Assembly: GCF_963675165.1 (NCBI RefSeq)
Contig: NC_087377.1
Span: forward strand, 13,140,198 to 13,204,197
Source: Halichondria panicea
Taxonomy: Eukaryota > Porifera > Demospongiae > Suberitida > Halichondriidae
DNA length: 64,000 nt
Direction: 5' to 3'
The notes beneath the pieces were generated by a model that was not told the DNA's origin, did not search any database, and saw nothing but the letters and a program-made list of their open reading frames with translations. The position numbers and the translations under genes were made by a program. This document shows, one piece after another, positions 5,121 to 45,370 of the stretch (positions within the stretch are counted from its first letter, which is position 1; the number at the start of each line of letters is the position of its first letter).

Positions 5121-8100
5121 ATGAATGCAAGATCATCAGATCTACAGATTGCTGTCACTCTAGCGTTGCTTATTTTAAGTTGGTCATGCCGAGGGGAAGG
5201 TAGGTAGATGTAAATAAGAAATTATTAAACAATGTTACACAAAGCAGCTTATTTGACAATAACCCCCACTGTGGCTTGTCCTGATGACACTGTCACCTTC
5301 ACCTGCACTCTGCCTGGTAGCTTTATACGATGGGGAATCACTCCACTGCAAGGGGCCCGGTTCAGCATATCTTTACTTTCTAACAATGATGATGTCACAA
5401 ACGGTATTCCAGCATTCCGTGGTGTTCGCAAAGACACGAGTGAAGATAATGTCACTGCCACTCTCACTTCACCGTCTGAGGCCTCCATTGTGGAGGGTTT
5501 TATGGTGGAGTGTCTTGGGGCTAGCTCACAAGAAGGTCCTCTTCCCATTACTGTTGCTGGTGAGTGGTTGATGAATGAGAATGACAGAGTTTAGGCGTTG
5601 CCTGGTTTCCGTGAAACGAATAATACAGTGCATGCAGTGTATGATGTGCCAGGGTTTTGTACAGGGGGGAAGGGGAGATATCCCCCCCTAGATCCAATTT
5701 CTCCCCCCCCCCCCTAAAATGTGCATTCATGTACATGTACTAGTTGTATGACTGAGTGTCCATAGCTGGCAATTTTACATACTAACAGGGTAGCAAAATT
5801 TTCTGGTTACTTTTGTTACTTCCCCCCTCTACTTCAAAATCCTGTATGACACCCTGTATAATGCACACACACACACACACAGATCCACCCTCCCCTCCCT
5901 TGAGTCCAAGAGTCTCCTTCACTCTAAACCAACCCAGCTACTCTAATACTACCCTGGAGTGGGGCCCTCCCTCCTCTACTGGCAGTGTGTCTGTCAACTA
6001 TGTCGTTACTATCTCCCCAACACCTTTCTCTGGGTCACCAGTCACCGTGGAGGCCATCTCGGCACAGATAACTGTCTCCTACAACACTCTCTACAATGTG
6101 ACTATCAGAGCTGACAACTGTGCAGGAATGAGCCAAGAGAGTTTAATTATGGATCTAAGTCAGTCATGATTTATATAGCTAATACTATATAATTCCTCCT
6201 CCTTAATGCAGTTGTGTGCCCCACACCGTCTACTGCTGCTGATGTGACTATCACCAACACACCTCCTGTCACTATTGGTGGATCCATGCTCACCTTCACT
6301 TGCAGAGACAGTGAAGTGATAACCTCAACCTGTGGCAGTAGTGGGTGGTCTCCTGACCCTGGGACCTTCGACTGCAGCAGTCCAGTTACAGGTATATATA
6401 TCATACATAACAGATTGAATGTGTACATGTTTCTATGGTGACCTTATTAGATCCCTCGATCACCTGTGACTCTCCAACAGTACCGTACAATGGCACTGTG
6501 GACATCAATGGTGTGGAAACACCACCCTTCTCACTGGGTTCACAGGTCATCTATCGCTGTGATGAGGGACTGTTCCCCCCTGATGTGAGGACCAGCATGC
6601 ACATGCACTGATGTGGGGGGTAGGGGAGAGTGGGTGGAGAATCCTAGGAGCTTGGTGTGCAGAGTGAGTCCAGGTAATACAGTACAGTGACAGAACAAGG
6701 TCAACCATTAAATTGTCAATCCTTCTTTCAGTCAACTGCTCTCTTCCTGCTGAGCCATCCAACGGAACTATAGTGAACTATGAGAGGTTGAATGAGACAG
6801 TGTCAGAGGGAACAGTGCTGACTTACCAGTGTGACAATGGATTCTCATTGACTGAACCCATCACCATCACTTGCACTAATGCTGGAGTCTGGAGTATTGA
6901 ACCTGAGGCAATCATGTGTGTGCCACCAACTGAAGGTGAGAGTAATGAACCCGAGGCACATAGCAACCACGGGAGTTATGGTAATCCCTTGATTTGTTTG
7001 TCTGCATGTGTATTTAAAGTCTGCTCACCTGGCTGCCATAATTATATACTATAGCGCCTTCTTTTACAGCACGAATAGCCTCAACACAACATATTATTAT
7101 AATTAGTGGGAGCAGATTTAATTTTGTGGCAAGCGAGCAAAAACAGTTATAGTTTATAAGACGGTATACAATATTATGTAGCTAAACATGATATATGCCT
7201 TTAATTTGAGGCACGCCATTACACATGCATGCGATTGTGCACTTATGCACTATACATGCAGCCATGTGCATGCATGGAGCCTTATTTCACGGGAAGACTT
7301 CCTAACTTGCTGGCGTTATTATTATACTGTGAGCCTATACTCCGGTCCCACGCATATATAATGTGTTAGGTGTGTCCTATACATGTATACTTGTAACACT
7401 CCAGGCCTCGATCTTTGCTAGCTCTGCTGTAATTAATCCTAATGGTCCGGGACTCTCAGTGCATGTCAGATGCCACTAGGGTTTATTTCAGTGTGGCTTA
7501 GCAGGTTATAATTATTTCACCTGCTTAAAATGTTCTGTCACCTTAGCTTGGAGCATGTTCTCACAGCTCAACAACTGTAAGGCAATGGCGTTCCCTATCA
7601 AAGACACCATCTGCTGGCTATGGGATTTTTGACAACAAGTAGGAACTAATGAAACAGAAGTTCGTCTATATAATTATCACCCCCTCCTCAACTATAACCT
7701 CAATCCCAGGCAGCACTTCCTTTCTTCAATGGAAGGCTTGTGGCTACCTGGCCCTCAACTTAGTGCATGTAACAACAATTAATTAATGACTGTACATTAT
7801 TAGTCACAATACTATACTACATTGTATAGATCTACTATGAGCAGTAAGGCAATTACATACATGTATGTACATGTAGCACACAGGCTGGCTTACAAAGCAA
7901 TCTTCTTAACGACAACCAGGTAGATGAAGAGTATGACAACTATAGCTCGTACATTATTATACCGGTATAATACAACATCGCTTGCTCCAGGGTTTGCAGC
8001 AACATTGCATGAAGTTACCACAAGTCAACCATTTTGTCTGGAAAACGTTAAAGTAACATTTTTCTGGGGGGACGCAAGCAAGCATCCTATATGCTAGCTT

Positions 8101-8925
8101 CGTGTCAACCACATGTCACCTACATGCTTGGGAAAATCTGAAATAAATCCTGATTTGGACTTCTTTGCCGACTTTACTTTGATCCTATAGTGAATTATAT
8201 AGTCCCATGCATGAAGTGCATGTCTGACCATGTACACCACCATCTATCTACGTGCACGTGTCAAGTGGCACCACGACCGTTTCAAAACTTTTGTCATAAG
8301 GCCATGCAAAGTAGTTCTCAGGCCCTCGCGCTTGGAAATTGGCAGCTTTACAATATCACGTGACCTCAAATTAAAGGAAAAGAAAAGGATAAATTTGTAT
8401 GGCTTTTTGGTCATGAAATAATTATGACTAAAATTAATTAGTAAAAATTATGCACTTCCGCTTATTGAGGAAGTTAGGGGTGTGTTTCAATTAAAATTGT
8501 ATGAATATCATTATCATTAAATGCCTCAATCCGCTTGCTATTTTAGCCTGAGAAACTACAAATTGACTTTGCATGGCCTAAGTGTATTATACTAGTAGGG
8601 TATATACGAATCTGATTGTGCTCTATATAATAATTATTATGCCAATAATTACTGCCAATCCTTCACAGCTGCCACCCTATCAACTGGTGCAACTCTTGCC
8701 ATCGGTGTTACTACTACTTTCGTTGCGTCTACTATCCTTGGATTTCTCGCTGGACTCCTAGTGATGTATTCGTTCACGCGTAAGAAGGCAGTGTACTACA
8801 CAAGAAAAACAGCATTATCTGTTGTACAACCCACGAAACCAGTTGGTCCTGTTTATGAAGAGGTGTCACCCAAAGAGGAGATTGAACTGAACACTAACCA
8901 GGCGTATGGACCATTAGGACTGTGA
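5121..8925 (+). CDS. receptor A: Ig-FN3-Sushi x3-TM with two-tyrosine tail (one frameshift)
   Basis: This is a predicted type I membrane receptor in seven exons: 5121-5199 (signal peptide), 5245-5559 (Ig-like: Cys, then IRW, then VEC), 5883-6158 (FN3), 6212-6391 (Sushi, ends GWSPDPGTFDC), 6451-6673 (Sushi), 6732-6935 (Sushi) and 8669-8925 (membrane helix and tail). All junctions fit GT-AG and all are phase 1. The tail has juxtamembrane RKKAVY, then GPVYEEV and NTNQAYGPL. Exon 5 is 223 bases, one more than a multiple of three. An extra 'atgc' near 6596-6603 shifts the frame into a stop before the last two Sushi cysteines. Without it the product would be about 509 residues, so this is a damaged allele, an assembly error or a young pseudogene. 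The last intron is 1.7 kb, others are short. AATAAA lies at 9058-9063. Ligand and partners are unknown. Confidence 0.8.
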
Positions 8926-9057
8926 ATTTTGTGCTACTAACTTTTGCACTAACTATCATCATGCATACAATTTAAGTTTTCTAGCCAGTATTATAAGTGT
9001 TTCACCTGTTATAGACCGCTAAACATTATTTTCAATAGTAATGACATAATCTTTGTT

Positions 9058-9063
9058 AATAAA
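9058..9063 (+). promoter_or_regulatory. candidate polyadenylation signal of receptor A
   Basis: A canonical AATAAA lies 133 bases past the receptor A stop codon, before an ATGCATGC-rich stretch. It is the nearest canonical signal on the plus strand. Confidence 0.45.
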
Positions 9064-13347: not shown

Positions 13348-15913
13348 ATGACATTAAAGCTCATTAGTGTTCTTCTGATTTGCTTTCTGGCTGGCTTCAG
13401 CACTGGTAAGACTGACTATTCAATTATAGATGCCCTTACATTGCTGCATGTTTCGTAAAGCCCAATATTCAGTGAGTGTGGAGAGACCATGTCCAATGGA
13501 AACAGTCACTTTCACCTGCACTGCTGCTGGAAATGCCTTGAGATGGGTACTGTCAGATGTTACTGACATCGATATCCTCTCCATCTCTGATATCAACGTA
13601 CCCATTGTTGTATCAGGTTACACTGTGACACTGATCGCATTCAATGACACTACATTAACATCTACTCTGTCAAGAACAGCAGAGAATGGGATCACTGTGT
13701 TCTGTGTGGACCCACTGCCTATTTTAACCAATATAGGATCTTCAACGATCCGATTGGTTGGTGAGTTGCAATAAGTTCCTCGTCCGTTATCTCACAATAA
13801 GTTATATAGATCCACCAGGGCCACCTTCCACCATAAGACACTCCACTCTGAGCAGCTCAGCAGATGCAGTCAGTGTATCTGTACAGTGGGACCCTCCAAC
13901 TGAGATTGATGGTAGAGATGACCTCACCTACACAGTGACCATCTCACCTCTGGCCCAGCTCTCTGCTACTGTCCCAGGGGCGTAGCTACCATTGTTTCCT
14001 GGTTGCCCAGAAACCCCCCCAGGAGCTGCTGAGAAAATTGGGCAGGGCTCCCTATAATTGAAATCATGCAGCCCTGCCCATCTTTTCACATGTGGCTGCA
14101 AATCAATAATCAGAGCAGCATCGTGAAGCGTTTCAATTTGGCTTTTTTGTCTCAGCTAGTTAGTCTCAGCTAGTTAGCTACCTCAAACAAAGAAGACCAA
14201 GACTTAAGTTCTAGATCTAGTATCAATCCTGAATGCTCCAGTATTCTCAGACTCAGCTCTAAGCACAACTTTATTCAGGAAGTGTACAAGTTTAGAACAA
14301 TCTCAGCCACATGAAACCTCTCAGGTAAATGACATTTAATTATTGCTCAGCTAGACTAGCAATACACAATTGGCACCTGCATGCCTAGTATGTTACGTCT
14401 ATAGCTAGCTAGCTTCTCACAAACATGTAAAAAAGTCATGAACAATAGTCAATAACAGTAGGTGTGCCCCAATCAAGAGGGTGTGGTACTGGAAGTGGGC
14501 GTGGTCACAAAAATTTCGCGGCGCTATCGCGCCGCTGATTTTTCTGCAGAAACCCCTGTCTCAAAAGTCTGGCTACGCCCCTGTGTCCTCACATCCACCT
14601 CTGCTACTGTGACTGCTCAATACAATGTAGACTACACTGTCAGTGTTGTGGCTACTAACTGTGCTGGGAACAGTACAACAGCTGAGTACAACTTTAGGAT
14701 CGGTGAATCAACATCGTCTTTAAACATATAGCACACTGACTCCCTCTTGTGCAGGTGGCTGTCCTGTGTTGTTAATCAACCTCATGAATGGAGCGTTTGG
14801 ACCAGTCTCCAGCAGATTGCCAGGATCCATAGTAACCATCCAGTGTGACGATGGATATATATCTGCTGTTACTAGGGTGACATGTGAGGGTACACTGATG
14901 TGGAGTCCAGACCCTGAGGCTATTGAGTGTACATCACTAACCACACCTACTCCCACCACTCGTGAGTTAAGCTCGGCTGTATAACTGATTATGGATAATT
15001 TATGTTAATTTTATTAGCCCCTCCAATGGACTGCACGGCTCCACTATTCTCACCACAGAATGGCACCATCAGTGATCATTCGGTACCAGCTATTCCTGGT
15101 AGGCAAGTGGCTTTTCAGTGTGAAAATGGACTGTTCCCTGAGGGAATAATGACTGCCACCTGTCTAGCTACAGGAGAGTGGGACAAAAATCCGGGGGAGA
15201 TTATCTGCAGATATGAGTCTAGTAAGTCAAAGTTTGAACTACTAAAACTTCAAATGAGCATAATCATATCCTTGTACACCCAGTTTCCTGTCTTCTGCCT
15301 GGCCCTCTACTTAATGGAGCATTACTCAGCACCAACTGTCAGAACACTAACCTAGTTGAGGGCTCAGTCATTACTTTCCAGTGTGATCCTGGGTTCTCAC
15401 TGGTGGGTGCAGAGACTGCCACTTGTAACAACTCCGGTCTCTGGGATCCTAACCCGGCTCGATTGGAGTGTGTATCTAGAAGTACGTTGCACAAACACCA
15501 AGTATATAGTAGCAAACTAGCTGTGTAAGAACCTTTTATGATTATGACTAGCCATAAAGGCAATAGTTTACTCTTGTGATGCACGCCCTCCCATTGTCTA
15601 TTTGAACTCTCTATACTGATGGTTTTCGTTCCTCCTCCCCTGCACAGTTCAATCACCCATCCTATTTACCGGAGAGATTCTTTCTATCAGTGTGGTTGTC
15701 ACGGCAGTTGCTTTCATAGTCATAGGATTCCTCGCTGGACTCCTAGTGATGCACCTTTGCTCTCGTAAGAAGGCAGTGTACTTCCCAGCAACTAAAGGAC
15801 AAGCTAACGTAAGACCCACTGCACAGCCAGCTGGTCCTATTTATGAAGAGGTGTCACCCAAAGAGGAGATTGAACTAAACACTAACCAAGCATATGGACC
15901 ATTAGGACTGTGA
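13348..15913 (+). pseudogene. receptor B: Ig-FN3-Sushi x3-TM, FN3 exon split by a transposon
   Basis: This is the same receptor plan as A. Exons are 13348-13405 (signal peptide MTLKLISVLLICFLAG), 13461-13760 (Ig-like: FTC, LRW, VFC), 13810-14702 (FN3, interrupted), 14755-14961, 15018-15221 and 15284-15481 (three Sushi), and 15648-15913 (helix and tail with YEEV and NQAYGPL). A 609-base element at 13975-14583, with TGTCC duplicated at both sides, sits inside the FN3 exon and brings an in-frame stop. Leaving out the element and one TGTCC copy gives 279 bases, exactly the FN3 exon length of receptor C, and about 503 residues overall. I see no other lesion. The insertion is therefore the only disabling event, perhaps recent or polymorphic. 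I found no plausible splice pair that would remove the insert. Confidence 0.85.
13975..14583. mobile_element. CAGKGGCG-family miniature transposon inside receptor B FN3 exon
   Basis: The left end CAGGGGCGTAGC and right end GCTACGCCCCTG are perfect inverted repeats. TGTCC is duplicated at 13970-13974 and 14584-14588. The interior includes 'gggcgtggtcacaaaaattt', shared with the copy at 36450-37112. No transposase is present, so it is non-autonomous. The 5-base target duplication does not by itself settle the superfamily. Confidence 0.9.
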
Positions 15914-16213
15914 AGATTACTAGTGGGTAACATTCTCGCAGGCAAAATGATCGGGTATTATAGTATAATTATTATAGTGTGTTTATATAGCAATTTTTTC
16001 CAGAAAAACATTTGCAATGTGAAAAGTTATAACTATGATTATAGCTATGTATATATACATGACTTACGCTAACAACTCAAAGCCTAGGAAGACTGCATAT
16101 CCTGTCAATGCTGGGGAAATATCAAAAAGCGTGGAAACAAGAAAGTGGGCAAGAGCATAACGACAATTCTTACAAAATTACATTACAAAATAAAGATTTG
16201 AAAATATTTGTTC

Positions 16214-16366
16214 ATGCATAAGAAGAATGTATACTTCCCGGAAGCTGAAAAACAAGCTAATGCAGGACCTCCTGCACCAACCAGTTGGTCCTATTTATGA
16301 GGAGGTGTCACCCAAAGAGGAGATTGAACTGAACACTAACCAGGCGTATGGACCAGTAGCACTGTG
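16214..16366 (+). pseudogene. orphan receptor tail exon, frameshifted
   Basis: A stray copy of the receptor family's last exon lies 300 bases past receptor B. It begins within the end of the membrane helix (FMHKKNVYFPEAEKQAN) and carries the YEEV and NQAYGP motifs, but a small indel near 'gcaccaaccag' puts the two halves in different frames. It resembles the tail of receptor C more than B (HKKNVY in place of RKKAVY). No ectodomain exon lies directly upstream. It is likely left over from unequal crossing over. Confidence 0.75.
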
Positions 16367-17458: not shown

Positions 17459-19697
17459 ATGTCACTAATAGCAGGGGCGTTTCTAGAGATTGAAGCAGGA
17501 GGGTGCTTAAAAGTACAGAAAAAAAATGGAGCCGCGCGCGATTTTACGCCCCCGCATTTATTGCGGAGTATCTTTCATACATCCAGCTCCTCCCCATGCA
17601 GCCTTGCAGCAAAAAAGTACAGCACACTGCCCAAGAAAAGAGCGGCTCCTACTATTCTCCTCTAGAGCTTCTCTCTTCCATTCTAGTTCTGTTACTATGT
17701 TACTAGACAAAGCATCTAGCTACAATAATTTTTCTGTGTATCTTCTTGTAAATGACAATAATTATAATGTATAATGTTGTAGTTTGTAGCCCAGAGTAAT
17801 CTATAGTACCGGTACTATAGCTCATACTTCCCTGCTAAATACACTCAAATGGGATCTAATACATGCATAGCGTGATAATAAGACATAATTATGAGTCAGT
17901 CATCTTGTAGGATCTCCATGCACTATTCTTCTGGGGTACATCCTAGCAAACTGGTCAATCATAATGGGGATGTCCAGTCATTCTAGTGTTAGTCATTGCT
18001 TCTCAGTATCTCTCAGAGGAGCAAGAGGTGACTGGGATAGTGCAGAGGATCTATTATGCATGCAATTAGCATTACATAACAACATTGGAATGGCAATACT
18101 GATTGCACATGCTCAATTGGGCGTGGTCATGACTTGTAATCGTTGTGTCAATGAGATAGAGTTAGCTAGCTAGCTACTGAGTGATACGATTAGTTTCATG
18201 GTTGTCTGGGAGGACAGGGGGGTGCTCAAGCCCCCAAAGCCCCCCATTGTACACGCCACTGAATAGAGATAAAGCGTATTAGAGTTTTTTTGATTTTCTT
18301 TCTGGCTGGCTTCAGCACTGGTAAGACTGACTATTAAATTATAGATTTTCTTACATTGCTGCATGTTTCATAAAGCCCAATATTCAGTGAGTGTGGAGAG
18401 ACCATGTCCAATGGAAACAGTCACTTTCACTTGCACTGCTCCTGGAGATTCCTTGAAATGGGAACCGTCAGATGCAGCTCGCACAATCGCTGTCCGCTCC
18501 ACCTCTGGCCTCAATGTATAGCCAATGTTGTATCAGGTTACACTGTGACACTGATTGCATTCAATGAAACTACACTAACATCTACTCTGTCAAGAACAGC
18601 AGAGAATGGGATCACTGTGTCCTGTATGGGGTTTGTGCCTACTCTAACTACCATAGGATCTTCAACGATCTGGTTGGTTGGTGAGTTGCATGCAGTTAAT
18701 ATCGTGTCTATCGTCTGTATACACTAAATTACATGCATAGATTCACCAGGACCACCCTCCACCATCAGACACTCCATTCTAAATAACTCAGCAGATGAAG
18801 TCAGTGTATCTGTACAGTGGGACCCTCCTACTGAGACTGGTGGTAGAGATGACCTCACCTACACAGTGACTGTCTCACCTCCGGCCCAGCTCTCTGCTAC
18901 TGTCCTCACATCCACCTCTGTTACTGTGACTGCTCAATACAATGTAGACTACACTGTCAGTGTTGTGGCTACCAACTGTGCTGGGAACAGTACAACAGCT
19001 GAGTACAACTTTAGGATCGGTGAATCAACATCGTCTTTAAACATACAGCACACTGACTCCCTCTTGTGCAGGTGGCTGTCCTGTGTTGTTAATCAACCTC
19101 ATGAATGGAGCGTTTGGACCAGTCTCCAGCAGATTATCAGGATCCACAGTAACCATCCAGTGTGATGTTGGGTATGTATCTGCTGTTACAATGGTGACAT
19201 GTGAGAGTACACTAATGTGGAGTCATGACCCCGAGGCTATTGAGTGTATATCACTAACCACACCTACTACCACAACTCGTGAGTTAAGCTCTTGGCTGTA
19301 CAGTTATGGATACAATTGTTAATGAATTGTATTACACATGCAGCCCCTCCAATAAACTGCACAGCTCCACTATCCCCACCACTGGAACCACCTACAGCTG
19401 CTCCTTGTAATTGTAATTGTAATTGCGCCAGCCTATGTGATGGGGGTCGATTTGATACAGCTGTCTCCATCAGCGTGGTTGTCATGGCAATTCTATTCAC
19501 GATAATAGGATTATTTATGGGACTCTTAATAATGTATTTATTTGTTCATGCATAAAAAGAATGTGTACTCCCCAGCAGCTAAAGGACAAGCTAATGTAGG
19601 ACCCACTACACCAGTTGGTCCTGTTTATGAGGAAGTGTCACCAAAAGAGGAGATGGAACTGAATACTAACCAGGCGTACGGACCAGTAGGACTATGA
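17459..19697 (+). pseudogene. receptor C: heavily damaged Ig-FN3-Sushi-TM paralogue
   Basis: Exon 1 (17459-18320) is cut after 13 bases by a 790-base transposon. Without it and one AATAG copy the exon is 67 bases, the same length as in receptor D, and encodes a signal peptide starting MSLI. Exon 2 (18376-18680, Ig-like) has an in-frame TAG and a 2-base excess. Exon 3 (18741-19019, FN3) and exon 4 (19072-19278, Sushi) are intact. Exon 5 (19344-19697) fuses the start of a second Sushi exon (PINCTAPLSPP) directly to the membrane exon through a Cys-Asn repeat, and an extra four bases before the tail breaks the frame. The tail still carries YEEV and NQAYGP. With at least four lesions this cannot make the family product. 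Confidence 0.85.
17472..18261. mobile_element. CAGKGGCG-family element inside receptor C signal-peptide exon
   Basis: The left end CAGGGGCGTTTC and right end ACACGCCACTG form imperfect inverted repeats (CAGKGGCG). AATAG is duplicated at 17467-17471 and 18262-18266. No transposase is present. Downstream the receptor exon resumes as 'agataaagcg', so the family's ATG is now 800 bases away. Confidence 0.85.
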
Positions 19698-20290: not shown

Positions 20291-20319
20291 TGCACACATG
20301 TCGATGACACAATGAGATC

Positions 20320-22834: not shown

Positions 22835-23030
22835 GAGGGAGAAAGGGTGTATATAGTGAGAGATAGTGGGGTAAAGGGGGGTAGAGTGAAGGAGAAAGGG
22901 TGTATATATATAGTGAGAGATAGTGAGGGAGAGGGGGGTAGAGTGAAGGAGAAAGGGTGTATATAATTATATATAGTGAGAGATAGTGAGGGAGAGGGGA
23001 GTAGAGTGAAGGAGAAAGGGTGTATATAAT
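22835..23030. repeat. minisatellite, ~55 bp unit (left block)
   Basis: Units contain 'gtgagagatagtgaggg', 'gagaggggggtagagtgaag' and 'gagaaagggtgtatata'. The same array resumes at 25800-26215 on the far side of the LINE, so the LINE landed within it. The minus strand is open in all three frames and gives artificial Ser-Leu-Tyr-Pro repeats. Confidence 0.9.
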
Positions 23031-25799
23031 TATTATTATTATTATTATTATTATTAAGACTTTACAGCCTGTAACGTGAATGATATAAAAACAAGTGATT
23101 GTTGTAGCAAAGACTATAGCTGACAGACTGTGCCGCATTGAGCAACACAGCTGGATAATTTAATGTGAAGTACATGTGAAGCTAGCTATAATTACGTGTG
23201 TAGCATCTGTTGCATGGGCACATTAAGTGGTAGGTACATGGGATGTCAGAGACAAAGTTTTGTTTGAAGTGCTCCCAGAAGTAATGGTGGAGTGTATTCT
23301 TTGTTGAAGTTAGTGGTGCGCTGATATCCATCAGCATAGTGGGCATCAAGTTCCATAACCTTGTGATACGATTGAGGTAGAAGTGTCTGCTTGCGCTGTA
23401 GTGATTGGCTTGTACAGTGAGTTTGTTGTTGCAACTGAAGCGGGTGCGACCAGTAACGAATTTGATGTGATCTCTTATGTTGAAGTTGTCCGAGGGTTCC
23501 TTTAGTGACTTTACTAGAAACATTATGTCCTGTATTTCAAACCAGTACATTAGAGGTAGTAGCTTCAAATCGGACAGCCTCGATCTGTATGAGCTTGAGT
23601 AATCATTGAGTATGAATTTGGTGGCTCTCCTCTGGATTCTTTCTAGTTTTTGAATGTCCTTGATCAAATTTGGTCTCCAGACTTGGGAGCAGTAGGTGAC
23701 CTGGGATCTAACTAGGGTTATATATAACGATTTTTTTGTGCTGGTTTCTGATTTCATTGAAATCGTCCGTCGGATGAGGTTAAGAGCTCGGTAGGCCTTA
23801 GACGATATGAGGTTATAATGCAGTGACCAGGAGAGGTTGTTGGCTATGCACAAGCCTAGGTCTTTTTCTTTTGTAGCAAAGTTAAGGTGAGAATTGTGGA
23901 TTGAGTAGAGTGTATTAGGGTTGTCTTCGTGCCAGCTAGGATGAGTTATGCGCAGCACATTACATTTTCCTTCATTGAGTTGCATGTTCCAAGTAGTGCA
24001 CCAGGATGACAACTGGTTGATGTCTGTTTGTAATTCCAATTGGTCTTCCGTAGAAGTGATGCACTTTACTAGCTTTGTGTCGTCCGCAAATAGAAATGGA
24101 TTGGCAGATGAGATGCACTCCGGTAATTGATAAAAATAATAAATAACAGTGGGCCTAGGATGCTTCCTTGCGGAACTCCTGACATAACTGGTAAGTAGTT
24201 GGATGGAGTATTAATAACACTTGTGAAGTGTATCCTGTCATGTAGGTACGATTTAAACCACAGCCAAAGAGGGCCTGTGATGCCTGTCTTCCAAAGCTTT
24301 AGCAACAGCTCATTGTGTGGGACCATGTCGAAAGCTTTCTTAAAATCTAGGTAGATGACATCTGTAGGTTTTCGGTTTTCTATGTTGTCAAAAACTTGGG
24401 AAAAGAATAGGATTAATTGAGAAAGACATGATCGGTTTCTTAGGAACCCGAATTGTTGGCATGTTATCTTTGGTCTCACGAATGTAATAATTTTCTTGTA
24501 GATGATAGTTTCAAAGACTTTGGATATAATTGGGAGAAGAGAGATGGGCCGAAAGTTTTCTACAAGATGGGGGTCGCCCTTCTTTGGGATTGGGCAGATT
24601 TTGTGGACCTTCCAGTGGGGTGGGAAAGTATGTGAAGATAGGCTAGAATTGAAAATGTGTGTGACTGATCTTGTGAGAGCGGTAGCACAGCATTTGAGGG
24701 TTGACGCATTTATATTATCGTGGCCTGGTGACTTTGTTGTGTCTAGTGAGGTGAGGGTTTCGTACACCTCAGACTCTTCTATAGAGATAGAGCTCAGTTG
24801 ATAAGTGGGGGAGGGCATTTTGTCCCATGGAGGAAGTGTATAGTCACTTCTTGTGAATGTCGAGTTAAAGTATTTGTTGAAAATTTCAGCAATCTGTCCA
24901 GTCTCTGTGATGATGGAGCCGTTGTGGATTATTGTTCTAGTTTGTGGACTTTTCTTACTTAGGTCGCGCAGATGACGGAATAGTTTACTTGGGTTGAACT
25001 TAAAGCATACTGCCAACGATTTTTCGTACTCAGATTTGGCAGTTGTCATTAGTTCCTGGAGATGAGTAGACAAGTTAGATAGCCTTAGGGATGTACTCTC
25101 AGTGGGTTTGGATTTGTTTCTGCGTGTAAGCGTTTTGCAGCGATTGATAGTATGTCTCATTTCTGTGGTATACCATTTTGGGCTTTTTGACTTCTGAGAG
25201 TTAAATTTGGGCACAAATATTTCCTGTGCTCTTGAGATGATTTTTTCTAGATGGACTGAACAGGCAGGCTTGGGTTGGCAGATAAAAAACTCAGACATGG
25301 AATTAAAATTTGCTTTTTTAAAGTTGTAGTTGCTGGCCGGTTTGTCTTTAGAGAGTAGTTTTGGTGTTTTTAAGCCATCTAGTGAGAACGTGATAAGGAA
25401 GTGATCAGACATAGGTGAACAATTAGACGAGTCAATGTGCAGGTTGAGTATCCTGTCTGGTGAATTCGTGCATACTACGTCCAGTATGTTTCCTTTTGTG
25501 TGTGTTGGAGATGCAATCAGTTGGAGAAAGTTCTGAGCGAAAAGTGAGTTACAAATAGAAACCGAGAGTGGAGTTTTTCCAGACAAAGATGACCAATCTA
25601 CATCTGGGCAGTTTAGGTCGCCCACCAAGATGGTGTTGTGGTTTGGAAGAGACGATATGGCGTTTGCCACTTCTAAAGAAAAATGTGCTGGTGGTATGTA
25701 GATACATGCCAGGGTTGTTTTGGGAGAAACAAGCAGTTCAATTACAATTAGTTCCAGAGATTCGTGCCTGCAGATTAGTTGAGAGGGTATATCTTCGGA
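23031..25799 (-). mobile_element. LINE retrotransposon, 5'-truncated, one frameshift
   Basis: This is a non-LTR retrotransposon copy. The minus strand begins inside the AP-endonuclease domain (VGDLNCPDVDW, then SDHFLI) and continues into reverse transcriptase (FRPISLLPIISKVFE, QFGFLRNRSC, DVIYLDFKKAFDMVPH, GVPQGSILGPLLF). Near 24120-24131 four bases are missing just before the catalytic FADDTKL motif, which shifts the frame; the rest continues from about 24100 to 23182 and ends with a typical LINE C-terminal region (QRRATKF, LNRITRLWNLMP). A (TAA)n tail at 23031-23056 follows. The combination of endonuclease and A/T microsatellite tail suggests a CR1/L2/Jockey-related clade. The N-terminal endonuclease half and any first frame are absent, so this copy is dead. 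Confidence 0.9.
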
Positions 25800-26215: not shown

Positions 26216-26812
26216 GACATGCATATTGTAATGTGTATATGAATGTACACATGTAGATTGTCATAGTAATTGTGACACAGATAACACCCCATAAGATTCA
26301 TCACCTTAATAAATACTAATCGTGAAATCGTTGATGGTGCCAGTATGAGCACACACACACCCTTGACAAGTATTCACGATCAAGTGAATGAATAAAGGAG
26401 TTGCATACATGCATGTACATACTTAAGACACTATTGACTCAATTCAACGACAACGTATTGGAAACCTCGAGCTCGTCAATTATAAATAGATACACATTTA
26501 AGTGTATGAGACAACACATTTTAAAATCAGCAAAGCGCTAGTATATCAGTAGTTTACAGATTATTGTCAGAGACTTCAATACTGCAACACGGAAAATAGC
26601 TCATTACACACACGTACCTTTTCTCATCGTATCCATGATATTTCGATACACACCCTCACCCTTAATTCCACTCTTGTCTAATATAAAACCCTATTGCATG
26701 TAAAAAAATCTATACCATCATCAGCTGCTGCATCAGAAAGAGTTATATATTTACCCTTTTAGTTTCTAATAAACGTTAGATTTGGGATAATATTCAAGAT
26801 GCTTATACCGTA

Positions 26813-27301: not shown

Positions 27302-29611
27302 ATGACATTACATATATATTGGCTCATAGGAGTTCTCTTGATTTGCTTTCTGGCTGGCCTCAGCACTGGTAAGACTAACTATAGATTTCCTTACATTGAA
27401 CACTGCATGTTTTGCAAAGCCCAATATTCAGTGAGTATGGAGAGACCATGTCCAATGGAAACAGTCGCTTTTACCTGCACTGCTCCTGGAGAGGTTTTGA
27501 GATGGGAATCAAATGTAGCTCGTACAATCACTGTCTGCTCCACCTCCTCTGATCTCAATGTACCCATTGTTGTATCAGGTTACACTGTGACACTGATTGC
27601 AGTTGATAATGCTACATTAACATCTACTCTGTCAAGAACAGCAGAGAATGGGATCACTGTGTCCTGTGTGGGGTTTATGCCTGTAAGCACTATAGGATCT
27701 TCAATGATCCGATTGGTTGGTGAGTTCCAGTTAATTAGTGTCTCGTCCATAATTGTAGTAATTTATTGTTAGATCCACCAGGACCACCTTCCACCATCAG
27801 AGTGAGACACTCCACTTTGAGCATCTTAGCCAATAAAGTCAGCGTAACTATTGGTTGGGACCCTCCTACTGAGACTGGTGGTAGAGATGACCTCACCTAC
27901 ACAGTGACCGTCTCACTTCCGGCCCAACTCTCTACTACTGTCCTCACATCCACCTCTGTCACTCTGATTACCCAATACAATGTGGACTACACTGTCAGTG
28001 TTGTAGCTACCAACTGTGCTGGGAACAGTACGACCGCTGAGTACAGTTTTAGGATTGGTGAGTATTATTATTTTGGACACAGTGTAAACTCCTTCTCAGG
28101 CAATTGTCCTGTGTTGACCAACCCCATAAATGGAGCCTTGGGACCAGTCTCCAGCAGATTGCCAGGATCCACAGTAACCATCCAGTGTGATGCTGGGTAT
28201 GTGTCTGCTGTTACAATGGTGACATGTGAGGGTACATTGATGTGGAGTCCTGACCCTGAGGCTATTGAATGTGCAGCACTAACTACTCCCACAACTCGTG
28301 AGTTTAAGCTCTTGGTTATATATTTACCCCGTGTGTGCACAGCGAGCAGCAAGGGTAGAGTGATTGGTGCATGTGTGTGTGTCGGTTTGTGTATGTGTGT
28401 GGACACAAAAATGAGCTGTTAGAGTGAACTAGACACTTTCGTTGTTGAGCTCTTATCTTGGTGTAGAGGGATTCTATAGACAGGACAGGTTAGACAAATT
28501 AGCTAGAGACAGGCTCCTAGCTATAGGCAATAACAACTAGTTACAGACAAATTGACTTCACAGTGTAGCTTAACCAAATTCTTAGATTGAGAAGCAAAAC
28601 ATCAACTGACAATACAGGAAAAATGAGAGGGTAAAGCAAAGTGAGGCAAAAAGGGTAAACCTTAAATACGTGGAGCGAGGCCCCAGAGGCTCGCACAACA
28701 ACAAAGGGAGCATTAACAATGAGAATTGTTATAGATGATATCAACATCAACATCAAATCATGGTTAAGGTAATGGTTCTAATAAAATTAATAGTAAAGTG
28801 CATTGAGCATGAATATTCGTAGACTGCTTCAACTGTTAATGAGGCAGTGGTTGAAAAATAATAGTTGTAGGTGATCTTCGAAGGTGACAAAAAACACTGT
28901 TTTATAATCGATACAATCGTTGCTTTATAGATTTACGATCATTCCTCATAATGTTAAGGTCGTTACGATAAAAATTTTGTATCCGTTTTGCTGCTGCATG
29001 TGCGATGAAGCTCAACGCACAGGGTGAATGCTCTACTGAGCATCAAATAAATACTTCTAACTGTATGTTATTTACACAGCTCCTCCAATGAACTGCAAGG
29101 CTCCACTATCCCCACCAAGGAATGGCACCATCAGTGATCATTCAGTACCAGCTCTTTCCGGTACGCAAGTGACCTTTCAGTGTGACGATGAGCTGTTCCC
29201 TGAGGGAATAATGACTGCTACCTGTCTAGCTACAGGAGAGTGGGACAAAAACCCACTCTGCAGAGGCAAGTGTATTCATTACTTGAATTAAGTAGTCATG
29301 CTTCTATACCTTGAACCACCTATACAGCTGTTTCTTACAATTGTGCCAGCCTATCTGATGGGAGTCGATTTGATGCAGCTGTCTCCATCAGTGTGGTTAT
29401 CACGGCAGTTCTATTCAACGTCATTGGATTGTTGATGGGACTCTTGATAATGTATTTGTTCATGCGTAAGAAGGCAGTGTACTCCCCTAGAGCCAAAGAG
29501 GAAGTTAACGTAAGACCCACTGTACCAGCTGGTCCTGTTTATGAGGAGGTGTCACCCAAAGAGGAGATTGAACTCAACACTAATCAGGCGTATGGACCAT
29601 TAGGACTGTGA
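27302..29611 (+). CDS. receptor D: intact Ig-FN3-Sushi x2-TM receptor with two-tyrosine tail
   Basis: This is the only undamaged member of the family: 439 residues from six exons, 27302-27368, 27420-27719, 27773-28057, 28100-28297, 29080-29265 and 29328-29611. Residues 1-22 are the signal peptide, 23-122 the Ig-like domain (FTC, LRW, VSC), 123-217 FN3 (GWDPPTETGGRDDLTYTV; NCAGNSTTAEY), 218-283 and 284-345 two Sushi domains, about 364-391 the membrane helix (then RKK), and 392-439 the tail. Tail tyrosines are Y417 (YEEV) and Y434 (YGPL), 13 residues between the motifs, plus Y397 close to the membrane. Intron 5 uses a GC donor (gcaagt). Intron 1 is 51 bases, open and in frame, so retention would add 17 residues. 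The ectodomain has several N-x-S/T sites. A cell-surface recognition role is inferred from architecture; ligand and partners are unknown. Confidence 0.88.
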
Positions 29612-37577: not shown

Positions 37578-38422
37578 GTATGAAAAACAACATTGTTGAC
37601 AGTTGGATTTTAGTTTTTAGTTAACTAACATAATTATAGCAAAAACATATTCCACTCTATATTCATGCATGCACTGGTCTAGCTAACAAAGATCAATTAG
37701 ATCAATTAATCTAGCGTTACACAATAAACACCTAAAACCAATTTATTAGTAGCCGAGTGACCATGTCTCAGAATTACGCTGCTAATTAAGCTAATGACTA
37801 TTACCACAAGCGGAAAACCACACATGATAATGTTTGACTAATTCGTTAGAAAGGCGTATATACGAGCTGAAAATGCCTATAAGCTTACAGCCAGAGGTTA
37901 ATCCCATTAGCTAATTATTAACAGATTAACACAGGCCTTGAATATAGAAGTTCTAAGTTCTCTCGGATGAAATGTCTGGCTTAATTACGATACTATAGTC
38001 CTTTTCAAGGGCGTATGAAGAGAAGTAGGCATGCAACTACAATCTATCAAATTACAAATAGGAGGGGCGTGTGAACTAAAAATAGATTGCACGTGCCCTT
38101 ACTCCATAAAGCTAGCTAGCTAGCACTGTACTGTTGGGTAGAGTTGGCCACAAAGGTCAATAAGCGGAAGAGAAGGACCGATGCTAGACTAGAAGTAGCC
38201 ATTAATCAATTCTAAGCTCTTCAAACTAATTTTGCGGTAAATTTCTAGTATAACAGTGTTCACGCCCACTATCACGCCTATTTACGTGTGGGCGGTTGGT
38301 TAAATATAGTATATCCTGCTGACTCATCAGTTTTTTGACGACTACACAGTATACATTGCGAGTTGCATGCCCTCTTCTCTTCATACGCCCTTGTCATTAT
38401 ATTATCTGCATACACTATATAG

Positions 38423-38701
38423 ATCCACCGGGACCACCGTCCAACATAAGACACTCCATTCCGAGCAGCTCAGCCAATGAAGTTAGTGTGACTATTGGTT
38501 GGAATCCTCCTACTGAGACTGGTGGTAGAGATGACATTGCTTACATAGTGACCATCTCACCTCCGGCTCAGCTCTCTGCTACTGTCCTCACATCCACCTC
38601 TGTCACTGTGACTGCTCAATGCAATGTGGACTACACTGTCAGTATTGTGGCTACCAACTGTGCTGGGAACAGTACAAATGCTGAGTACAGGTTTACGATT
38701 G
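38423..38701 (+). pseudogene. orphan receptor-family FN3 exon
   Basis: This exon is 279 bases, phase 1 at both ends, and opens DPPGPPSNIRHSIPSSSAN, clearly the FN3 exon of the A-D family. It keeps acceptor 'ctatatag' and donor 'gtaagt' and is open throughout. No Ig exon lies upstream, and a LINE fragment lies 125 bases downstream. It is most likely a leftover of a lost receptor gene, though use as an alternative exon of the following Sushi locus is not excluded. Confidence 0.7.
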
Positions 38702-39724: not shown

Positions 39725-39949
39725 ACATATATACATGATTTATTTTGTCTTTAATGCTGTAAAATCATATTGAATTGAGTATCTAGAATCTTCTGAACAT
39801 GTCTGTACAAGGAGGAAATGAAGAATGTTACTTACTTACGGTACTTTATACTTTATATTTACTTACCGTATAGTGTGTATATTTCGAGGGTATAAATGTT
39901 CGCGGTTTTCGCTTGAGCAATGCAAGCTTACCATTAATGTTACGTTCAG

Positions 39950-42594
39950 TTGTGGATTGTGGCTCCCCTCCCTCCATTTTCAATGCATCTCCTGGAACAT
40001 CCACGCCTGGTACAACTCTCGGAGGGATGGTGACCTACACCTGTGACGCTGGGTATGAGGTCTCCACTGGAGTCACCACAGCAATGGCTACCTGTATGGC
40101 TAATGGGATGTGGGGACCTCTACCAACTTGTCAATGTATGTGAAGTTGTTACTGTCACTGATATAATACTTAATTGCATTAACTGTGTTCTCACTCACTC
40201 AGTTGTGGATTGTGGCTTCCCACCCACCATTGGAAATGGCTCTCCTGGAACACCCACCAGCACAACCTACCAAGGGACAGTGACCTACAACTGTGTCATT
40301 GGGTATGAGGTCTCCACTGGAGTCACCACAGCAATAGCTACCTGTATGGCTAATGGGATATGGGGACCTCTACCAGCGTGTTCACGTAAGTCATGGATTG
40401 GAGAAGTTTTCTCTATTTCCTGTCTACTTTATAGCTGTTGACTGTGGTGTCCTCACTTACCCCTCTAATGGAGCAGTGGACACTTCCTCTGGAACCACCT
40501 TCATGATGACTGCTACCTACTCTTGTAACACTGGATACAACATTGTTGAAGAGGCCACTAGGACTTGTGGGGCTACTGCATTGTGGACTCCAGAGGCCCC
40601 GACCTGTGCACGTGAGTAGCATGGATAACTGTGTACACTGTGTCCACTGTGTTCATATTTCACAGCTGTTGACTGTGGTCCTCACTGTGAATGCAACATT
40701 CTACTATTAATTTGTTGCAGTGCTTTGTCCGGACCTCACCATTCCAGCCAATGGAGGGATCACATACAACCCAACCATCATCCCTAGAACTGAGGGTACC
40801 ATGGCTACCTACACCTGTGACACTGGCTACCAGATGACTGGATTGACAGTGAGAATGTGTACTGTCACTGGATGGAGCAATGGAGAAGACCTTGTCTGCA
40901 CTGGTAAGTAGATTGATGCATTCGAGCTAACGTGAGACTTGGGGTAAACTCTCAGCCACCTGTTCTGACCTAGCCTCTCCAATGGAATAATCAGCCAAAC
41001 TCCTCAACTAGACTGATCCAACAACATACACAACTAACGACTTAAATGATTAATTTTCTTTGCAATTTATGAAACCTTCACATGCATGCATGCATGCATG
41101 GTCAGTCAATAATTGGTATTTCTTAGCAGTCAGATGCCCAGCGGGAACCTATCAAGAAGAGTTGTCAACTGGAGAGAGTGCTTGTGTGCCTTGTCCTGGA
41201 AACAGCTTCAGTATTGTTGAAGATAGTGTGGAGTGTATATGTTTCAGTGGCTATTACAAGACGGAATTGGAGGGACCAAATGTTCAATGTTCATGTAAGA
41301 TTCTTAGATAATAAATAATTGATTGTTTGGAAGTACAATTCATGCAGATTTATAATTATATATACGAATTGTATACAGTGTATATATGTGAAATATTTAC
41401 CAACATGACATGCTTGTTCATTGATGCCGTATATAGCTCCTCCGAACAACTGTAAGAGTTTGCAAGTAGTTACTGAGAGAACTCGAGGTAACACAATCAC
41501 TGTGCGTTGGGAGAGGCCTGAGATCACTGGGAGAAACGACCTGTACTACAACATATTCTACTCTGAGGATAACCAGACCTTCACTCAAGACAACAGCAGG
41601 CCGTATGTCAAACAAGATGCCCTGGTGGACTACTCAGTGTCTGGTCTGCGACCACTTACCACCTACACCATCCGAGTGATCCCTGAGAATGGAGTGAGTG
41701 ATCAGGAAGAGGGAGGGCAGAGCAAGACCTGTGAAATTGTGGCCAGGACTGAGGATACAAGTGAGTGGACTTGCATGACTGATACCATTCTGTAAGAAAT
41801 GTTTTAGTGTAGAGTTGTATGATAATTATATGCATATTGAACTCGATAAATAATTCCCCTTGCGAAATTATAGAAGAGGGCATCAATGAATGAAATTGTA
41901 CCACCCTGCCTCAGGGTCTAATTCCCCCTCCCTGGTGATTGGTTTCTGCATTGTTGTGGTTTGGACCACGCCCACAAGGTCGTATGGGAAGATCACTGGC
42001 TATGACGTCAGGTTTATTCCTCAAGGGTCTGGTTCAGATTTGGTGGTGTCTAAAGGAAGAAGAGAACTTTTCCATGCAGTTGGAGATACTGGGATAGTCA
42101 CTGACAACGTCATGGTGCAGGTATATTATCCACTATACATCAAAATTTATGGCAGTAAACCTCCAAGGACGAGGGTGAAGCCCCGAGGCCAAGGATGGTT
42201 TACGTTTGCCATAAATTCGAATGTAGTGGACAATAAGTGTTATAATTATACCCACTTGAATTAGAAGTATTTGCTACCTAAGCTACCTCATCTTGGATAC
42301 AACTAGCAAACAGTCTCAAAAACTATTGAAAACGAACAAAAAGCTTGTGCCTAGTTGCTATGATACAGACCCCAAGTGGGGAATAATCATTATTATATAA
42401 ATCTACAATTGCAATAAATTATAATGTTCAGGTGAGAGCAAAAACGTCAGCTGCAGAGGGGAGGTGGAGTGAGCTGGTGCCACTGGGTAAGTTTTATTGC
42501 GAAATGTAATGTCACACCTCACCTAGTATGACATAATTTATATTATACAGGTTGCAGGAATGCTGATGGTTTTGCTGGCCCTATCCATGAGTGA
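39950..42594 (+). CDS. partial receptor: Sushi x4, Eph-like Cys-rich, FN3 x2
   Basis: Phase-1 exons run 39950-40135, 40203-40385, 40435-40611 and 40721-40903 (four Sushi domains, e.g. VVDCGSPPS ... ANGMWGPLPTC), 41130-41294 (CPAGTYQEEL ... CVPCPGNSFS ... CICFSGYY, the Eph-receptor-type GCC2/GCC3 fold), 41437-41760 (FN3, ITVRWERPEITGRNDLYY), 41915-42120 and 42432-42486 (second FN3 in two exons), and 42551-42594, which ends in a stop at GPIHE. All junctions fit GT-AG. This order is the ectodomain plan of sponge Eph-like receptor kinases. No signal peptide, membrane helix or kinase was found; the product may be secreted, truncated, or continue by a splice I cannot see. A short dead Sushi start lies at 40664-40700. 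Confidence 0.75.
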
Positions 42595-43522: not shown

Positions 43523-43850
43523 TTATATTACATTGACGTTGTAACGGATATATTGGAGTTATGCACTAGCCGAATTTCTTGTTTCTTCGCTTTTTCGCGC
43601 TTTTCTTTTCCTGGAAATCCTATAGCAACGTTCACATTGCAAACGTTTTTTAATTTTGATTCCCTTCATTAATTACAGTAGTACATTAATGTTTCTCTAG
43701 ATCTAGACTACACCCACAAATTTAACACAAGCAATTTAGTGGTGTTTGTGTTTTTAAAAATAATGTTATCTAGATTCTGCAATAGATCTAAAATGTAGTT
43801 ACTATTATTCAGTTGTTTACTGTTGCTGCAGGTAAGGACTTATGGGCCAC

Positions 43851-45370
43851 CAGTCACCGTGGAGACCACCTCCACACAGATAACCATATCCTACAAAACA
43901 TCCTACAATGTGACCATCAGAGCTGTCAACTGTGTTGGAATGAGTTAAGAACCTTCAATAATATTGAGTAAGCCTCATTGGGAATGTCATCATTGATTAT
44001 ATTTGGCTGCAATTTTATAGTCATAAAACATACATATACTCGTTTCCTTATCATATTTGCAGTTGTGTGTCCCACACCGTCTACTGCATGCTGCTGGTGT
44101 TACCATCACCAACACACCTCCTGTCACTATTGGTGGATCCATGCTCACCTTCACTTGCAGTGGAGACAATGGAGTGATAACCTCAACCTGTGGCAGTAAT
44201 GGGTGGTCTCCTGACCCTGGGAAATTTGACTGTGGCATTCCAGTTACAGGTGTCATACATGGCTATTAACTCTCTAAAAGGAATGTTAATCTCATGCATT
44301 AGATCCCCAGTCACCTGTGGTTCTCCTGCTGCACCGTAGAGAGGTAGTGTGGACATCAATGGTGAGACACTACCCTTCTCACTGGGTTCACAGGTCAGTG
44401 GCGGATCCAGAGGGGGTTCTTTGGGTTCAATTGACCTCCATTTGAGAAAGAAGTGAGTGGGAGGCTCAAGCAACTAGTTAGCAAGTTGTTCCTTTTCTTA
44501 CTAGCTTTCACGTGCACTTCTTACTTACCTTTAGTCCTTGCTAGTACGTCCTGCGAAGCTTTGTCTGTGCAGTTTCAGTAACTATGAAGGCTAAAAACTC
44601 TTCAGTATAGTGCATGCAGACTGCCTATGAAAAGTGATGACCTTGTTTTTAGGAAAAAATTCGGGGAGCTTGTTGTGCAGAGATAGGCCAGGTGAAACGT
44701 AGCTGTTTAGAGAAGATTGAAAAAGTTTACAAATGTATTACATACACCGCCTTTGTTCCACATTTCTCAATGGCAGGTTATTGGGTGCTCGTAATACAAA
44801 CATATCACTTTCTGACCGCGTCCATATAGCCAACTGCTCTCTTCCTCTTGAGCTGTGCAATGGTGCTACAGTGGACTATGAGAGGTGAATGAGACAGTGT
44901 TGGAGGGAACAGTGCTGACTTACCAGTGGGACAATGGACTCTCACTGACTGGACCTAACAACATCACTTGCACTAATGCTGGAGTCTGGAGCACTGATCC
45001 TGAGGCAATCATGTGTGTACTTGTGACTGAAGGTGATGAGCTTTGTAATTGTTTGCTATCCCAAGGTACATACTATCCCATCTCACATGCAGTTTCTACT
45101 GTTGCTCCTTTGTTCTCCACTTCTGCAACTGTCGCTATCAGTGTGGTCATCACTTTCATTGTCACTCTAATCATTGGATTCATTACTGGACTGTTGGTGA
45201 TGCATCTTTTCTTTCGTAAGAAAGCAGTGTACTTCCTGGCAAATGAAGGACAAGCTAACGCAGCGTCCACTGCACCAGTTGGTCCTGTTTATGAGGTGGT
45301 GTCACCCAAAGAGGACATTGAACTCAACACAAACCAGGCGTACGAACCATTAAAGTCGTTCACTCATTAA
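43851..45370 (+). pseudogene. receptor F: truncated FN3-Sushi x3-TM paralogue, transposon in a Sushi exon
   Basis: This is closest to receptor A. It begins in mid FN3 (to 43967, with a stop after GMS). Sushi exon 44063-44249 carries an extra four bases 'atgc'. Sushi exon 44303-44691 is interrupted at 44396 by a CAGKGGCG-family element that has replaced its middle; the exon end 'ggagcttgttgtgcag' is still recognisable. Sushi exon 44830-45032 lacks one base. The last exon (45093-45370) is open: membrane helix, FRKKAVY, then YEVV and NTNQAYEPL, with four to six extra residues after the usual end. No signal peptide or Ig exon is found. The final intron of 60 bases is also open and in frame. Confidence 0.85.
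44396..44662. mobile_element. CAGKGGCG-family element, truncated, inside receptor F Sushi exon
   Basis: Its clear left end CAGTGGCGGATCCAGAGG interrupts the sequence 'ttcacaggt' of the Sushi exon. It matches 22257-22628 in reverse orientation up to 'ttaggaaaaaattc', where it stops and exon sequence resumes. The far inverted repeat and the target duplication are gone, so a deletion followed insertion. Confidence 0.85.

Follow-up and report, generated by a model that had tools for sequence, protein, structure and literature searches.

The window that we analyzed, a 64,000-nucleotide stretch of the genome of the sponge Halichondria panicea, contains between positions 5121 and 45370 five loci and two orphan exons of one gene family, all on the + strand, which we delineated by a profile search of the window (Table 1). 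The loci are ~72–90% identical to one another at the DNA level over aligned stretches, far above chance, and share an architecture in which exons for an Ig domain, an FN3 domain and one to three Sushi domains (one in C, two in D, three in A and B) precede an exon for the transmembrane (TM) segment and cytoplasmic tail. An earlier, sequence-only reading of this DNA had described the layout, the variation in Sushi number and a single intact copy among the five, and each of these descriptions held, with D being the sole intact copy under strict rules. Locus A carries a 4-base duplication near 6598 that shifts the frame of its second Sushi exon; a laxer gene predictor had presented it as complete by trimming exons around frameshifts, an assignment that we dropped. 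The FN3 exon of locus B is interrupted by a 609-base insert (13975–14583) with 12-base inverted ends and a 5-base target duplication, frameshifts in locus C spread the Ig exon over two frames and affect the tail exon too, and locus E is truncated and has no Ig exon. We excluded the exons at 39874–42261, which encode four Sushi domains, an Ephrin_rec_like domain and an FN3 domain and represent a different gene type.

Table 1. Family members in the window (positions counted from the first nucleotide of the window).
Feature	Position	Strand	Description
Locus A	5121–8925	+	Ig-FN3-Sushi x3-TM/tail; class A; broken
Locus A signal peptide	5121–5199	+	
Locus A Ig	5248–5559	+	
Locus A FN3	5883–6158	+	
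Locus A Sushi x3	from 6212, 6451 and 6732	+	
Locus A TM/tail	8669–8925	+	
Locus B	13348–15913	+	Signal peptide, Ig, split FN3, Sushi x3, TM/tail; broken
Locus B Ig	13473–13760	+	
Locus B TM/tail	15648–15913	+	
Orphan tail exon	16202–16364	+	From profile search
Locus C	18390–19694	+	Ig-FN3-one Sushi-tail; pseudogene
Locus C FN3	18741–19019	+	
Locus C Sushi	19072–19278	+	
Locus C tail	19533–19694	+	
Locus D	27302–29611	+	Ig-FN3-two Sushi-TM/tail; intact
Locus D exon 1	27302–27368	+	Signal peptide
Locus D exon 2	27420–27719	+	V-set-like Ig domain (predicted fold)
Locus D exon 3	27773–28057	+	FN3
Locus D exon 4	28100–28297	+	Sushi 1
Locus D exon 5	29080–29265	+	Sushi 2; GC donor (AG/GCAAGT)
Locus D exon 6	29328–29611	+	Stalk, TM, cytoplasmic tail with GPVYEEVSPKEEIELNTNQAYGPLGL
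Orphan FN3 exon	38422–38700	+	From profile search
Locus E	43841–45370	+	Partial FN3, Sushi x2–3, TM/tail to 45370; pseudogene

The Ig-FN3-Sushi order proposed earlier was confirmed, but Pfam returned no match in a scan of the Ig exon and scored the FN3 domains of A and D slightly below its cut-off, and the Ig and FN3 assignments therefore rest on fold models. An AlphaFold2 model of the Ig domain of D had a pLDDT of 93, and its best structural matches were TCR V domains (VIA-align Z 11.2 over 92 residues, rmsd 2.4). Foldseek gave this model a best E-value of 3.7e-3 with a probability of 1.00 and no match at E ≤ 0.001, and the V-set reading is based on the Foldseek probability together with the VIA-align Z-scores. 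The model has the features of a V-set member of the immunoglobulin superfamily, namely a B–F disulphide, a core tryptophan and V-like strands C′ and C″, and residues C20, W29 and C83 of the D domain are at least 90% conserved among 67 sequences. The outer domain is, according to its modeled fold, a V-set-like Ig domain, and variation within it concentrates on the CC′–C″/FG region.

The window sits in an array of ~3.7 Mb on the chromosome-size contig C1, where 149 of 150 scored tail matches fall between 11.25 and 14.93 Mb; a DNA pattern for the core of the tail matched the genome 215 times, compared with once for the reversed control. Counting paralogues, as the sequence-only reading had proposed, gave a merged catalogue on C1 with 206 entries for the Ig exon and at least 168 for the tail exon, or roughly 200 gene copies, many of them broken. 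FN3 and one to five Sushi domains lay between the Ig and TM/tail exons in every gene that we fetched (93/93). Under strict rules 53 of these copies were intact, 14 failed only for want of a found signal peptide and 26 were broken or partial; a first count of 59 intact copies was too lax, because the predictor had shortened exons flanking frameshifts. Transposons surround the loci. Among 98 regions compared, only seven pairs came to 97% identity across the greater part of the region; six gene pairs were at least 99.8% identical through their introns, and two pairs were 100% identical, introns included. Neighboring Ig exons were of the same class in 133 of 201 cases (shuffle mean 105.7, with none of 5000 shuffles reaching 133), and because tandem duplication suffices to account for these same-class neighbors, a paired gene arrangement like that of FF/FcoR is unsupported. 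We found two tail types at 50% identity, one of which occurred with class A Ig only, and no clear case of exons shuffled between the Ig and tail classes. The birth-and-death pattern suggested by the window thus gains strong support at genome scale from the number of tails in one array, the broken or partial copies and the near-identical pairs, and the diversity of the family is best read as germline, arising through tandem and block duplication, gain and loss of modules, and decay. This genome also contains silicatein-like genes, which lend indirect support to its sponge origin.

The tail motif is 26 residues long and includes two conserved tyrosines, in YEEV and YGPL/V; a stop codon follows it directly in most tails and some residues further on in a few. 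All 95 tails that we compared carried two tyrosines within their last 32 residues, 93 of them matched Yxx[VIL]...Yxx[VIL], an ITAM-like pair of core tyrosine motifs, and 91 had a tyrosine-to-tyrosine spacing of 17 (x13 between the motifs), although these genes were chosen by tail similarity, which biases the conservation somewhat upwards. The canonical ITAM is YxxL/I-x(6-12)-YxxL/I, from which the sponge tail departs in the valine at position +3 of its first motif and in the distance between its tyrosines.

Tail pN/pS was 0.18 among 30 D-class genes and 0.20 among 14 A-class genes, compared with 0.63 and 0.66, respectively, for the Ig domain, which bears out the contrast drawn earlier between a conserved tail and a more variable ectodomain. 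Tail pS (0.21 in class D and 0.20 in class A) was comparable to that of the ectodomain, and because pN/pS is low at this ordinary pS, selection rather than gene conversion preserves the tail; homogenization is thereby ruled out as the source of its invariance. Among intact copies, purifying selection acts not only on the tail but also on the portion of the Ig domain that varies less. Pooled pN/pS was below 1 in every whole domain, and peaked at 1.24 (interval 0.67–2.88) for the class A juxtamembrane linker and at 0.87 (0.68–1.10) for the class D CC′–C″/FG segment, a segment picked post hoc after its variability had been seen. A per-site test, for which we used our own FUBAR-like script on a wider gene set that included some broken copies, and which recombination among paralogues may disturb, gave candidates with P > 0.9 at 3 of 95 Ig codons versus 5 of 92 FN3 codons in class D, and at 7 of 103 Ig codons, 1 of 91 FN3 codons and 6 of 85 codons of the TM/tail exon in class A. 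Neither the pooled pN/pS nor the per-site test found clear positive selection on the ectodomain. The per-domain comparison that the sequence-only reading had recommended therefore showed strong constraint on the tail, but evidence for diversifying selection on the ectodomain that is weak at best.

The same genome encodes a candidate signaling partner, L109, whose domain order of SH2, ankyrin, SH2 and kinase matches the SH2-ankyrin-SH2-tyrosine kinase order of Shark/HTK16. The Shark label rests on this domain order, and in a PDB sequence search with one L109 kinase exon the Syk-family kinases did not rank first; Shark itself is described in one account as combining Syk homology with ankyrin repeats (PMC10253181). 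The array genes are not receptor tyrosine kinases, in that their tail exon ends at or near the tail motif and no kinase match on C1 at 11.2–14.9 Mb was listed among the 129 of 1749 candidates that were scored. A gene at C6:2304800–2316500, however, has family-type Ig, FN3 and two Sushi exons and a TM-like stretch in the same order, followed by tyrosine kinase exons. Its ectodomain is homologous to the family at the profile level (E-values of 1e-12 for Ig, 3e-20 for FN3, and 4e-18 and 5e-14 for Sushi, using our own profiles and twelve reading frames), whereas its juxtamembrane part did not match the TM/tail profile of the family.

A literature search found no description of an Ig-FN3-Sushi family with such a tail, and its closest analogues are best taken to be Hydractinia Alr and Botryllus FcoR. 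Alr proteins are not known to have Sushi domains or a single FN3 domain in such an order. Like the sponge family, they are single-pass IgSF receptors encoded together, among many pseudogenes, within a single large stretch of the genome, and they are described as comprising at least 41 loci (PMC11067881) with ITAM/ITIM-type tails (PMC12065747). The fester co-receptors (FcoR) and the fester family of the Botryllus schlosseri fuhc locus are similar in their type I proteins with V-type Ig and Sushi domains, their Yxx[I/L/V] tails and their tens of linked paralogues, as summarized in a 2025 review (PMC12065747). Compared by domain layout, the sponge genes nevertheless fall outside FcoR, because one FN3 domain takes the place of the two C2 Ig domains that FcoR is described as carrying without FN3. 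As described, moreover, festers have three TM segments whereas the sponge proteins are single-pass, FcoR tails vary (ITIM, hemITAM, core motif) whereas the sponge tail is nearly uniform, and 53 FcoR loci compare with at least 168 sponge tail exons. Sponge Ig-TIR and SRCR receptors are described as immune-type proteins that contain Ig, FN3 or Sushi domains (PMC6208332, PMC8242945), but a Pfam scan of ten exon frames of the window found no TIR or SRCR match.

We suggest that these genes probably constitute a large clustered family of single-pass receptors that recognize variable ligands, whether microbial, from symbionts or on another individual's cells, and that signal through paired tyrosines. 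The V-set-like Ig domain would bind ligand through its variable CC′–C″ region and FG loop, with the FN3 domain and the Sushi domains, whose number varies, serving as the stalk; Src-type kinases would phosphorylate the tyrosines in YEEV and YGPL/V, and the phosphorylated tail would recruit tandem-SH2 kinases of the Shark/Syk class. Because a fitting tandem-SH2 kinase is encoded in the same genome, this scheme offers a working prediction for signaling. The pattern looks like that expected of genes that recognize self, non-self or microbes, and from it we infer an immune or allorecognition role; roles in cell adhesion or development would be expected to come with much the same anatomy.

That the family is the histocompatibility locus of this sponge and determines whether individuals fuse or reject each other when they touch, the role of Alr in Hydractinia and of FF/FcoR in Botryllus, is a tenable reading though not a probable one. 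One large linked V-Ig array with tyrosine tails resembles Alr (PMC11067881) and FcoR (PMC12065747) as described there, and because the array contains near-identical and decaying copies, variation in gene content is likely; however, the divergence that we measured is between paralogues in one assembly rather than between alleles, and the main text of an Amphimedon allograft transcriptome study makes no mention of immunoglobulin, Sushi or fibronectin (PMC5450542). The receptors may instead recognize microbes or symbionts with the same signaling logic, a possibility that we also take seriously without expecting it: microbial patterns are reported to shift the expression of Ig-domain genes in two sponges, one of which also responds with its Sushi and FN3 genes (PMC6208332), and in Halichondria panicea to shift that of genes with Sushi and Ig domains (PMC8242945), but the responding genes, as presented in those papers, are not identified as the C1 array family. 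The ectodomain exons shared with the C6 kinase gene raise the alternative that the array is the kinase-less branch of a family of sponge receptor tyrosine kinases, acting as decoys, co-receptors or substrates in adhesion or development, which we consider unlikely given the failure of the C6 juxtamembrane part to match the family profile and a count of ~200 copies, many broken, that is atypical for developmental receptors. It is very improbable that the array is mostly relic DNA or assembly duplication with few working genes, as the 26 broken or partial copies, the two pairs identical through introns and the surrounding transposons might suggest, since 53 of 93 copies are strictly intact, purifying selection is seen among intact copies, and so few pairs reach even 97% identity.

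Our preferred reading remains a clustered receptor family with paired-tyrosine signaling. Sponges distinguish self from non-self. The 2025 review nonetheless calls invertebrate allorecognition mechanisms a 'complete mystery' and presents the proteins proposed for sponges, cnidarians and ascidians as lacking conservation (PMC12065747). A linked array of this size, in which V-type Ig and Sushi domains are combined with a conserved tail bearing tyrosines, is what a search for an allorecognition locus would aim at, and it makes the open question testable, through variation of the interval between individuals and its segregation with graft fate. It is conceivable, if doubtful, that this ~3.7 Mb germline array of ~200 V-Ig-FN3-Sushi copies, feeding through one nearly invariant paired-tyrosine tail to a Shark/Syk-type kinase, is the genetic basis of self/non-self recognition in sponges; if that holds, a scheme that joins a diversified V domain, a shared tyrosine tail and a kinase with tandem SH2 domains would date back to the base of the animal tree.

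The receptor array in this sponge genome is real and very large, with part of it decaying and part intact. All five Ig-FN3-Sushi loci (A to E) and both orphan exons of the sequence-only reading were found in the window, on the plus strand, and its count of one intact gene in five stands because A, B, C and E each carry a defect. The six exons of locus D join into a single open frame running from signal peptide through tail, the only intact receptor gene in the window; its five introns share the same phase, with four GT donors and one GC donor, and for exons 2 and 6 one of two possible in-frame starts was chosen in each case. Locus A, which the first predictor took for a complete gene, is ruled out as such, since a 4-base duplication disrupts the reading frame of the second Sushi exon. 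The exon for FN3 in locus B is interrupted by a DNA-transposon-like insert of 609 bases (13975-14583) with inverted ends of 12 bases (CAGGGGCGTAGC/GCTACGCCCCTG) and the five bases TGTCC repeated at both borders as a target duplication. Locus C is frameshifted in both Ig and tail, and locus E is without its Ig exon.

Features located in the window (window coordinates)
Feature	Position	Strand	Detail
Open frame of 561 residues	550-2232	-	PF13843 (DDE_Tnp_1_7), near-full model, E 3.4e-67, without inner stop
Non-LTR-type retrotransposon	23185-26297	-	One frame matches both reverse transcriptase and endonuclease
Locus D exon 1	27302-27368	+	
Locus D exon 2	27420-27719	+	
Locus D exon 3	27773-28057	+	
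Locus D exon 4	28100-28297	+	
Locus D exon 5	29080-29265	+	
Locus D exon 6	29328-29611	+	
Exons from another kind of gene, between D and E	39874-42261	+	Sushi, Ephrin_rec_like, FN3

The PF13843 match is of piggyBac type. In the retrotransposon an overlapping frame adds a weak reverse transcriptase match, and 55-base tandem repeats lie at 25806-26213, with similar ones at 22850-23028. The exons between D and E, a candidate Eph-receptor-like gene or fragment of one, hold two Sushi domains above the Pfam cut-off (four by our own profile), one Ephrin_rec_like slightly short of it and one FN3.

We searched the whole genome (131.5 Mb, 39 contigs) for relatives, and the copy counts for tail and Ig are lower bounds. 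With a first tail query, the best 150 of 306 candidates were scored, and 149 fell at 11.25-14.93 Mb of C1, the contig on which the window occupies 13140198-13204197; the remaining one, on contig C7, follows an FN3, a pair of Sushi and an Ig spread over two frames. A second query added 19 tail matches, giving at least 168 on C1 (137 plus, 31 minus). Two Ig queries gave at least 206 entries there, some of them fragments of one exon and four at 9.9-10.4 Mb, outside the tail interval; among the 202 above 11.2 Mb, neighbors lie a median of 7.0 kb apart. A DNA pattern of ten tail-core codons, allowing one mismatch, matched 215 times genome-wide versus once when reversed; the matches listed, part of the 215, were all on C1, and one exon can hold two.

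From 149 Ig-tail pairs less than 3.8 kb apart we analyzed 93 genes, picked by Ig and tail alone, and every one had FN3 and one to five Sushi in between (one in 17, two in 35, three in 37, four in 3 and five in 1). By a strict test 53 were intact, 14 lacked only a detected signal peptide and 26 were broken or partial; the Ig domains fell into six groups at 50% identity. When these 93 regions were compared together with the five from the window, six gene pairs were at least 99.8% identical, introns included (two at 100%), with members 0.23-1.43 Mb apart, and a seventh was 97.5% identical. Such near-identity points to recent block duplication; for the identical pairs, false duplication in the assembly is a possible alternative source.

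Sushi domains scored above the Pfam cut-off in all four family exons tested. For FN3 the cut-off is 25; the scores of locus D (18.9) and locus A (22.8) are slightly short, that of a relative on contig C6 is clearly above (32.6), and a family FN3 model resembles FN3 structures (pLDDT 79; Foldseek probability 1.00). The Ig exon had no Pfam match in any of three loci tested. The assignment to Ig in the earlier reading is nevertheless correct, given a structure model built from 67 copies (pLDDT 93), whose top Foldseek matches were mainly Ig domains of antibodies, TCR and MHC (probability up to 1.00; best E 3.7e-3, with nothing at E 0.001) and which VIA-align matched to a TCR V domain with Z 11.2 across 92 residues. 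As modeled, the domain appears V-set-like. Among Sushi (PF00084) candidates genome-wide, the best 150 of 4112 from a first look were scored and all exceeded the cut-off, many in other tandem blocks (contigs C2, C4, C9 and C15).

Among intact, non-identical genes of class D (30-31 genes) and class A (14), pN/pS was, respectively, 0.18 and 0.20 in the 26-residue tail, 0.45 and 0.45 in FN3, 0.56 and 0.54 in the first Sushi, and 0.63 and 0.66 in Ig. Because tail pS (0.208 and 0.199) is similar to that of the ectodomains, the uniformity of the tail reflects purifying selection. Variability of the class D Ig was concentrated in the CC' loop, C', C'-C''-D and FG; pooled with the short BC loop, these regions, picked post hoc once variability had been seen, averaged 1.18 bits versus 0.38 elsewhere, a value reached by 2 of 94 circular shifts. 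The matching segment had a pN/pS of 0.87 (0.68-1.10) versus 0.41 for the remaining Ig. Codons with P>0.9 for positive selection numbered 3/95 (Ig), 5/92 (FN3), 1/67 (Sushi) and 1/76 (TM/tail) in class D, and 7/103 (Ig), 1/91 (FN3) and 6/85 (TM/tail) in class A, so the case for selection at individual sites is thin.

Two tyrosines occurred in the last 32 residues of 95/95 tails, in a sample selected by tail similarity and thus biased toward conserved tails; 93 of the 95 had Yxx[VIL]...Yxx[VIL], and the tyrosines were 17 apart in 91. This spacing exceeds the loosest usual ITAM definition by one step, and V closes the first motif, for which reasons the tail is ITAM-like without being a strict ITAM. 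Contig C9 encodes an SH2-ankyrin-SH2-tyrosine kinase, an order that we take to be the Shark/HTK16 layout, and fly Shark reads an ITAM of Draper. According to a review, Shark/HTK16 resembles Syk, carries an ankyrin region and is confined to invertebrates (PMC10253181). Match positions alone suggest Src-type SH2-kinase layouts on C2. Near 0.66 Mb of that contig lie two of the three sites examined among four genome matches to a silicatein motif pattern; both place CGASYAFS inside a papain-type domain, which in one of them is preceded by an I29 propeptide. The serine replacing the catalytic cysteine is the silicatein mark and lends support to a siliceous sponge.

A gene at C6:2304800-2316500 (stretches L107 and L108) has the Ig-FN3-Sushi-Sushi order of the family and continues into a hydrophobic stretch and then exons coding for a tyrosine kinase; with twelve reading frames searched, the family profiles matched it at E 1.2e-12 (Ig), 2.9e-20 (FN3), and 4e-18 and 5e-14 (Sushi). 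Because this gene joins the same ectodomain order to a kinase, the cluster receptors may form, within an RTK family, the arm without a kinase. Downstream, near L108:4339, another possible Ig-type gene begins; Pfam gave no match in the single frame examined. Elsewhere, C10:1701723-1939391 is a tandem tyrosine-kinase array with at least 15 matches among those listed, 12 of the 15 without inner stop (open frames of 563-1091 aa), and C1:15549125-17363873 has at least 26 kinase-domain matches listed, with near-equal scores, another expanded family.

Literature on sponge Ig-FN3-Sushi families, allorecognition and multigene receptors yielded no title or abstract opening that describes this family, with preprints and most subscription papers outside the search, and the passages retrieved on sponge or invertebrate immunity do not mention it. 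The closest in kind are Botryllus FcoR, described as V-Ig, Sushi, two C2-Ig, TM and a Yxx[I/L/V] tail at 53 loci (PMC12065747), and Hydractinia Alr, with at least 41 loci (PMC11067881). The sponge family differs from both in size and in its nearly uniform tail, and has a single FN3 where FcoR has its C2-Ig pair. The array is best read as germline-diversified recognition receptors sharing one tyrosine tail, with a plausible role in self/non-self or microbe recognition.
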